This document shows, in pieces, positions 6,440 through 9,237 of a DNA stretch of 64,000 bases. Within the stretch, counting starts at the first letter, position 1, and every line of letters begins with the position of its first letter. Source of the DNA: Candidatus Fermentithermobacillaceae bacterium (lineage in GTDB: Bacteria > Bacillota > Sulfobacillia > Fermentithermobacillales > DUSS01). Location of the stretch: contig DYEQ01000092.1 of assembly GCA_020725645.1 (NCBI GenBank), forward strand, positions 1 through 64,000, read 5' to 3'. Below the pieces are notes generated by a model that did no database searches, had not been told where the DNA came from, and was given only the letters and a program-made list of their open reading frames with translations. The position numbers and the translations under genes are program-made.

Positions 6440-7504
6440 TTACCGTTTCCGTGCAGCGAGTCCTGAGCCATGCCGGGTTCTCATCCCCGCCCTCTTACGA
6501 CCCGAGTATCCAAGCGGGGCGTCGGCCGGAAGATGCGTGTACTCGACCGTCAATTGCCTGGGCCGAACCCCCAGGGATTCATCCAATCGTTCGTAGGCGC
6601 AGCGTACGTAAGCTTCGACCACATCGTATCCGACGGCGTTTCTTCCTAAGGCTAGAGCTACCTTGGTCGTTTGCCCCGAGCCGACAAAAGGATCGAGCAC
6701 GGTATCGCCGGGGTAAGAGTATAGCTGGATGAGGCGGTATGGTATTTCTTCCGGAAAAGGGCAAGGATGCTCGAGGGCGTTCGGGGGCACGGGAGCGATG
6801 TGCCAGACGTTGTTGGCGATCTCCTTCGTAAAAAGCTCACCTACGGGATACCTGGCTGCGTCCCGCCGGTCCTGGGAGGCGGCACGGTAAATGGGCTCGC
6901 CGCTCTTGCGAAATACCAGGATATACTCGGTCATGATGTTCGGATGGTAGTACCCGGGATACGGGTGCTGGATGAACACGCCGGCCCGCTTGACCCCCGC
7001 CGTGGTTTTGTGCCAGACGATGTCCTGGTGAAACCTCCAGCCGATTCCAGCAAGGCAGCTTACAAGATCAAAAGGCACCGGGTACAGAGTTCCTTCCATC
7101 AGCACCGTGCCCACGACGACGGCTAGAAAGCCGCCGGGCCTGGTCTTTCTAAGGGTTTCTCCGAAGATACCGGTGACCCACCGGAGATAAGAACGATAGT
7201 CCTCGAATCCATTGGCGTAAGAGCGCGTCCTGAAAGACTGATTCGGGTCTTGTGCATGACGGTCGTAATCTATGGCGTTCCAGTACGGCGGAGAAGTCAC
7301 CGTAAGGGCAACGCTTTCGTCGGGAACTTCCGGCATCTCTTCACTACTACCACAGTAAAGGCGAGCTTCCACTCGGTTACTGCCGAGGGAGCGCGCCTTG
7401 ACCATGACAGGTCGGCCGTTTCCGCGGCCGTTGACGGGAGCAGCCCCTGTCTCGAGAATCGACTCGCCGCTTTGATGAATTTCCCCGCCTTTATCGCACA
7501 GCAT
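6440..7504 (-). CDS. Solitary DNA methyltransferase (beta-type motif order)
   Basis: SVALTVTSPPYWNAIDYD (motif IV) precedes DPFVGSGQTTKVALALGRNAVGYDV (motif I). The ORF track start at 7693 runs into tRNA-Thr; ATG at 7504 with AAAGGTGA RBS is more likely. Confidence 0.8.
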   Translation of the reverse strand: MLCDKGGEIHQSGESILETGAAPVNGRGNGRPVMVKARSLGSNRVEARLYCGSSEEMPEVPDESVALTVTSPPYWNAIDYDRHAQDPNQSFRTRSYANGFEDYRSYLRWVTGIFGETLRKTRPGGFLAVVVGTVLMEGTLYPVPFDLVSCLAGIGWRFHQDIVWHKTTAGVKRAGVFIQHPYPGYYHPNIMTEYILVFRKSGEPIYRAASQDRRDAARYPVGELFTKEIANNVWHIAPVPPNALEHPCPFPEEIPYRLIQLYSYPGDTVLDPFVGSGQTTKVALALGRNAVGYDVVEAYVRCAYERLDESLGVRPRQLTVEYTHLPADAPLGYSGRKRAGMRTRHGSGLAARKR

Positions 7505-7665
7505 AGGGTCACCTTTACCTGAGAATACTTCTCGCCCAGCCTTTTGTGCCACGGCGAAAACCGCGGGTACTTCCACCCTCCGGTTGGCACTTCGACACAG
7601 CTCAGTGCTTGCCCTGCCCCAGGCTCGGATATCAGCGAGGACGCTCATGCGGACTTTCAAATGCG

Positions 7666-7740
7666 TGGAGCCGGCGATGGGATTCGAACCCATGACCTGC
7701 CGATTACGAATCGGCTGCTCTACCGCTGAGCTACGCCGGC
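7666..7740 (-). tRNA. tRNA-Thr(CGT)
   Basis: GCCGGCGTAGCTCAGCGGTAGAGCAGCCGATTCGTAATCGGCAGGTCATGGGTTCGAATCCCATCGCCGGCTCCA; cloverleaf with CCA encoded. Confidence 0.96.
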
Positions 7741-8003: not shown

Positions 8004-8042
8004 AGCGAGTTTGCCGGTGAGATATAGCCCGGCAAACTCGCT
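8004..8042. repeat. Perfect 14-bp inverted repeat
   Basis: AGCGAGTTTGCCGG (8004-8017) / CCGGCAAACTCGCT (8029-8042), 11-nt loop, just downstream of the minus-strand ORF ending at 8074. Confidence 0.7.
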
Positions 8043-8073: not shown

Positions 8074-8573
8074 TCAGTTCAGGTCAGCGAAGGTGACGTC
8101 ATCGATGACCGTCGGGTCCGTTCCCGTAGGCGAAGGGGATCTCGTGAAGAGAAGCCGGCAGAAGGCCGTCTCGGGCGGCGCCGTGTCCGTCAAGGCCAGG
8201 ACGGTCACGTGAAATCCGGCCGTAGGTGCGGGCGACGGAACACCGGAGATGAACAGGTACAGCCCGTGCCCGAGCTCCAATCCCGCAGCTGAGAGCCATA
8301 GGCCAGGTCGCCGGCGGTCGTTCCGTTTAGCCCCCACGCAAACGTGAGCTGATAACGTCTACCCGGGATAACCGGGATATCCTGAAAGAGCATTGCGGGG
8401 TCGGCCGGCGTAACCTGACCCAGGAAAGCAGCTTGAGACCCGGTGTGGGCAAGCGTAGCTCCAACGATAGCTACGTTACTGGACTGCCAGTCAGCCAGCG
8501 GGGCCCCAACGGTGCCCGTCTCGAATCCTCCGTTCACAACCAGGTTACCCTTGACCGCTGTTACGAACATCAT
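8074..8573 (-). pseudogene. Frameshifted small 'NGGFE...VDDVxF' protein (carbohydrate-binding/beta-sandwich-like), copy C
   Basis: ORF 8205-8573 (NLVVNGGFETGTVGAPLADWQ...YQLTFAWGLNGTTAGDLAYGSQL) continues in another frame in ORF 8074-8337 (LGHGLYLFISGVPSPAPTAGFHVTVLAL...PTVIDDVTFADLN); AGGAGGTG RBS before ATG. Confidence 0.65.
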
Positions 8574-8593
8574 CGCACCTCCTGCGTTTGGGC

Positions 8594-8824
8594 CTAAGTG
8601 GGTTCATGGAAGAACACGTCATCCACGAACATCCTGGTAGACAGCTGCGGGCTGACCGGCAGCCGTCACGCCCATACCCAGCATGGAGAGGCCCGAGTGC
8701 GAGGTCAGGTCGGTGACCATCACGTTCCTCAGGGTCAAATCGGCAAGGGTGGAGTCTCCCAAAATGCGAGTCCTAGTTCAAACCCCGGGTTTTTAACGAG
8801 GTTTCCTCTTGGCGCGGAAATCAC
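8594..8824 (-). pseudogene. Remnant of the same family, copy B: frameshift plus internal deletion
   Basis: Manual translation: VISAPRGNLVKNPGFELGLAFWETP | (frame change) ADLTLRNVMVTDLTSHSGLSMLGMGVTAAGQPAAVYQDV | (frame change) MFVDDVFFHEPT*; GAGGAGG RBS upstream. Confidence 0.6.
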
Positions 8825-8846
8825 ACATACCACCTCCTCGACATGC

Positions 8847-9134
8847 CTAACTATGCTGTTCGAACAGCACGTCGTCGACAAGGACGAAGTTGCCGGGTGC
8901 GCCCGGCGCCTTGCTCAGGATGATCCTGGCCATAACAGCTACGGCAGGCGCCTGAACTGTGTAGATGATTATGGCCTTGTAAGCTCCCGTAGCTGCCGCA
9001 CCAATGGTCACCGCGGGCACCAGCACCGGGCTTGGTCCTTCCAGAGCGGTCCCTAGATCATCTCCGGTCGAGTCGAGCCTCGGATGTCGGGGCACATGTC
9101 CTGGCGTAAGAAGTAGAAGACGAAATGAGCTCAA
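8847..9134 (-). pseudogene. C-terminal fragment of the same family, copy A
   Basis: ...AIIIYTVQAPAVAVMARIILSKAPGAPGNFVLVDDVLFEQHS*; no NGGFE/NPGFE N-terminus before the adjacent tRNA-Gly. Confidence 0.55.
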
Positions 9135-9162
9135 TGGTATAGGAGAACGGGGGGAATAAAAA

Positions 9163-9237
9163 TGGAGCGAGAGACGGGATTCGAACCCGCGACCCTCGGC
9201 TTGGGAAGCCGATGTTCTACCACTAAACTACTCTCGC
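9163..9237 (-). tRNA. tRNA-Gly(CCC)
   Basis: GCGAGAGTAGTTTAGTGGTAGAACATCGGCTTCCCAAGCCGAGGGTCGCGGGTTCGAATCCCGTCTCTCGCTCCA. Confidence 0.96.

Follow-up and report, generated by a model that had tools for sequence, protein, structure and literature searches.

Which kind of locus leaves three tandem and differently damaged copies of one gene between two tRNA genes, and what did its products do? This question is raised by positions 8074-9077 (minus strand) of the window, i.e., the whole stretch of 64,000 nucleotides analyzed here, in which three tandem paralog remnants lie between tRNA-Thr and tRNA-Gly. The remnants were named A, B and C in transcription order on the minus strand and compared with the two other members of the genus (G002 and G001). 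The layout is as follows:

7666..7740 (-): tRNA-Thr(CGT), anchor of synteny in 3/3 genus members
8004..8042 (-): perfect 14-bp inverted repeat just downstream of C, also in G002
8074..8573 (-): gene C remnant, third in the operon, complete apart from 10 deleted nt
8594..8824 (-): gene B remnant, second in the operon, ~70 N-terminal and last ~10 codons
8831..8839 (-): strong ribosome-binding site of gene B (GAGGAGG type), retained, same sequence in G002
8847..9077 (-): gene A remnant, first in the operon, C-terminal ~76 codons only
9078..9162 (-): scrambled ~85-nt remnant from truncated A to tRNA-Gly (alignment against G002)
9163..9237 (-): tRNA-Gly(CCC), anchor of synteny in 3/3 genus members

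As a best explanation, the stretch is likely to be a recently pseudogenised three-gene operon A-B-C with a role at the spore, the latter being part of what is rated here as likely. The locus itself is a case of ordinary, recent, lineage-specific gene loss, affecting a protein family that has received little study.

Lesions, intact relatives and timing of the decay

The first-pass annotation had described three homologous minus-strand units between two tRNA genes, and this description is borne out by the profile search that it had proposed as a check. A profile made solely from intact relatives matched window C (E = 3.7e-32 for its N-terminal and 5.2e-21 for its C-terminal part), the C-terminal part of A (4.7e-20) and both pieces of B (1.9e-7 and 2.7e-6), so that the units share homology among themselves as well as with intact genes found elsewhere. 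The NCBIfam model NF033675 likewise matched C (1.8e-9) and A (1.2e-4). No further copy of the array was found in the window's own genome by family and profile searches.

Intact orthologs in synteny were found, and every copy in the window carries a disabling lesion. G002 contains three intact genes of ~165-168 codons in the same order and between the same two tRNAs, each of which was aligned to its counterpart in the window (80% DNA identity for C):

L002 1489-2031 (-): intact G002 gene A
L002 963-1466 (-): intact G002 gene B
L002 433-939 (-): intact G002 gene C

Aligned against G002, C is shifted out of frame by a 10-nt deletion at ~8304/8305, which refines the single frameshift near 8240-8300 that had been suspected. 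B had been described as frameshifted and devoid of most of its middle, and indeed exhibits a 4-nt deletion near 8750 and a ~269-nt deletion near 8627, the combined effect of which is that the last residues are again read in their original frame. Upstream of ~9077, A is truncated, with its start, N-terminal half and upstream region lost (~240 nt plus the upstream region), in keeping with the missing N-terminus noted before. Between A and tRNA-Gly lies the scrambled remnant, in which a clear alignment with G002 is limited to the last bases adjoining the tRNA. The TTG at 9134, with which the listed open reading frame begins, does not mark the true start of a gene.

A further intact A-B-C triad in the same order is present in G016 (Fermentithermobacillaceae, another family of the order), with no tRNA beside it. 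The proposed look at orthologs and copy number in relatives thus yielded two intact triads, and G002 and G016 are the only genomes with one among the 154 searched from the class; within the order, two intact and one decayed array were found among 17 genomes. As A, B and C each pair between G002 and G016 (support 99/99, 99/96 and 100/99 for A-A, B-B and C-C in a tree of 50 domains), the triad is, judged from these sequence relationships, a set of three distinct genes that is older than the split of these families or was transmitted as one block.

In G001, the two tRNAs are 347 nt apart. This interval comprises 121 nt that align with the tRNA-Thr side; what remains corresponds for the most part to the region upstream of A, including the leader of A, the ribosome-binding site and ~8 codons at the start of the gene. 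All other parts of the array are gone. The start of A is missing from the window but survives in G001, so that at least the last steps of the loss took place independently in the two genomes. The earlier idea of a once-functional multicopy locus in active decay is well supported by the syntenic intact triad in one sister and the separate deletion scar in the other. The array is probably dispensable and under repeated loss within the genus.

The timing of this loss can be approached from the pattern of substitutions. Between the window and G002, C differs at codon positions 1/2/3 by.12/.05/.315, which is near the values of the flanking genes mtnA (.09/.07/.36) and mtnP (.05/.03/.35), and with G016 as outgroup ten residue changes are specific for the window and six for G002 (298 sites, p = 0.45). 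This codon pattern and the lack of an excess of changes in the window suggest long-lasting constraint on the genes, with disruption only in recent times. A long period of relaxed selection in the window lineage was considered and left no signal in the same counts.

Downstream of C, the inverted repeat at 8004-8042 folds as RNA with -31.3 kcal/mol (z = -5.9), is not followed by a T run and is probably an end-of-operon hairpin. A Sigma-70 promoter scan of the window gave results at chance level. On the far side of tRNA-Thr, a DNA methylase gene (N6_N4_Mtase, E = 2e-39; 6440-7600, minus strand) lies between a D-aminoacylase-like gene and the 3′ end of the tRNA. In G002 and G001 the aminoacylase gene directly adjoins the tRNA, so that the methylase gene looks inserted in the window; no direct repeat flanking it was found.

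Three other explanations of the damaged array have to be weighed. That the genes are intact in the organism and were broken by assembly or sequencing indel errors, the alternative raised in the first-pass annotation, is conceivable for a draft genome in 111 contigs. However, the ~269-nt deletion in B and the loss in A go beyond single-base slips, mtnA and mtnP can be aligned over their entire length with both congeners, and a different deletion removed the array from G001, which makes this explanation very improbable. It is hardly more credible that the tRNA genes enclose what is left of an integrated prophage or mobile element. tRNA genes are common integration sites, two members of the family weakly match a PHROG phage tail protein family and the presence of the array in the order is patchy; yet no integrase or phage gene is located between the two tRNAs, the triad of G016 lacks an adjacent tRNA and matches in IMG/VR were only distant and partial (28-38% identity). 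The least probable of the three is that the damaged genes still function, for example by way of the truncated N-terminal half of C or by programmed frameshifting. While the window lineage shows no excess of residue changes, the deletion in C takes out domain residues, B is left without most of its second half, A is without start and upstream region, and in the intact relatives each gene is a single open frame. Recent pseudogenisation of the operon is thus retained for the following considerations.

The encoded domain and its fold

Each intact gene encodes one CBM16/CBM4-like beta-sandwich domain of ~165 aa, which belongs to the NTTRR-F1 homology group and carries no collagen tail. All of the seven proteins tested match NF033675 (best E = 2.2e-16). 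The intact C of G002 reaches 59.2 bits (E = 5e-16) over positions 4-153 of the 155 positions of this model, and 60.1 bits was the highest score of any triad member when the genomes were searched; the triad proteins hence fall under the curated cut-off of 70 bits, with a homology that spans the whole model. For PF02018, the piece of C in the window and the intact C of G002 score 21 and 17.3 bits, against a gathering score of 25.9. In the literature searched, no paper naming the NTTRR-F1 domain was found.

The resemblance to beta-sandwich or carbohydrate-binding proteins that had been noticed from the motif layout fits with the predicted structure, as AlphaFold2 modeled C of G016 confidently as a 10-stranded beta-sandwich (pLDDT 91.1), for which Foldseek returned the CBM16 module 2zey as nearest PDB match (E = 3e-9). 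One end of the domain carries the NGGFE motif and the other the DDV motif, and the alignments show no variation at the N, F, E, D and V positions of these motifs. CBM4-type sandwiches usually hold a structural calcium site, and by analogy both motifs are probably the two ends of such a site.

A putative role at the spore surface

By analogy with the partners of the domain in relatives, a function of the triad in the spore coat or on the spore surface appears likely. SpoIVA is encoded in all three congeners, and sporulation genes and predicted sporulation have been described for the related complete genome of 'Ca. Fermentithermobacillus' (PMC10215811). The bacterium from which the window originates is probably spore-forming. 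Against a spore role, the triad is absent from most SpoIVA-positive genomes of the order. In relatives, the domain is found fused to a SipL/SPOCS-type region (L087, with a match below the cut-off to the CsxC exosporium family; cf. PMC4942563), to LysM and BsuPI (L097, with a weak, sub-threshold match of SafA type) and to collagen repeats (L094, L085 and L092), and a SipL-type gene is located ~4 kb from the triad of G016. Also against this role, a search of the B. subtilis control with the NTTRR-F1 model gave no match. As a separate observation, L087 (922-2010) and L088 (901-2004) combine an N-terminal SPOCS-like with a C-terminal NTTRR-F1-like domain, possibly a coat-protein architecture that has not been reported.

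Inspection by eye revealed no apparent signal peptide in the intact triad proteins. Spore-coat proteins, which are laid down from the mother cell, are expected to be devoid of one. In the proposed mechanism the proteins would be made in the mother cell without a signal peptide, would join into a small assembly, perhaps a hetero-trimer, in the coat or the outermost spore layer and would there bind or cross-link glycan. Of the surface or spore protein suggested at first, the decay and the CBM fold are thus supported, while the spore role is one that we infer.

Upstream of A, the 17-mer TGAATATTATGNCRTGA occurs in both G002 and G016 at a distance of ~50-70 nt (15/17 positions identical; 0/300 shuffles):

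L002 2047-2063 (-): TGAATATTATGNCRTGA, common to the two families
L021 6712-6728 (+): TGAATATTATGNCRTGA, common to the two families

The window has lost the region matching this site. The GAATATT within the 17-mer presumably resembles a sigma-E -35 element. Its assignment as a site of a specific sporulation sigma factor would be tentative, as no matching -10 element was seen.

The main rival to the spore role, which leaves the decay untouched, is that the triad encoded vegetative cell-surface or secreted sugar-binding proteins. The CBM16-like fold would suit such a function, a single homolog in G040 sits among glycosyltransferases and a protein with S-layer-homology/PGA_cap features is encoded near the triad of G016. 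However, neither a signal peptide nor an anchor is apparent in the triad proteins, and the partners of the domain in relatives (SipL/SPOCS, LysM with BsuPI, collagen repeats) point elsewhere, so that this rival is considered unlikely, albeit less so than those raised against the decay. With the spore role retained, the intact, the broken and the deleted array form a three-species series within one uncultured genus, in which a probable spore-envelope operon is being lost.

Threefold sets and comparison with known systems

Sets of three also occur elsewhere. Six genomes of other Bacillota (G340, G270, G512, G528, G252 and G214) encode one protein of ~475-535 aa with three NTTRR-F1-like domains in a fixed order, and in the tree of 50 domains the domains of these proteins cluster by position. 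A split or fusion with A, B and C corresponding to the first, second and third domain was rejected by AU tests (p = 0.006, 0.002 and 0.022), and A+B+C as a single clade was not rejected (p = 0.23). As the tests reject this domain-by-domain orthology, the threefold sets probably arose twice. They hint at a trimeric unit, with two events being all that this hint is drawn from; the model of a three-domain protein (pLDDT 58, pTM 0.41, four rows) is too poor for statements on packing. That CBM-like spore domains work in obligate threes, with the operon and the three-domain protein as independent origins of a spore-surface unit that is (pseudo)trimeric and lacks a collagen stalk, is a speculative idea that we consider rather improbable. 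A three-domain homolog in G269 (L078, 569-1963) contains a TAA in its second domain, which possibly reflects a parallel decay in another lineage.

Among known systems, CBM16/CBM4-type modules (PF02018; PDB 2zey, 2zew) share the predicted fold (TM-score 0.70/0.79) and the NxGFE...W and DDV motifs with the triad proteins. The latter, however, are below the Pfam cut-off and joined to no enzyme, and sugar binding by them is putative. BclA-type exosporium glycoproteins consist of a collagen-like region and a C-terminal trimeric head, neither of which is present in the triad proteins. The name of the NTTRR-F1 family presumably implies collagen-like triplet repeats after the domain. Indeed, such repeats follow the domain in the relatives L094 and L085, for which scores of >200 bits were obtained, whereas the triad proteins end at the domain and are encoded by three separate genes. 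The three-domain NTTRR-F1 proteins, in turn, resemble the triad in that the domain occurs three times and in a constant order, but hold it in one polypeptide instead of three genes. The stand-alone three-gene form is therefore a small new element, built from a domain that is otherwise known beside collagen-like repeats.
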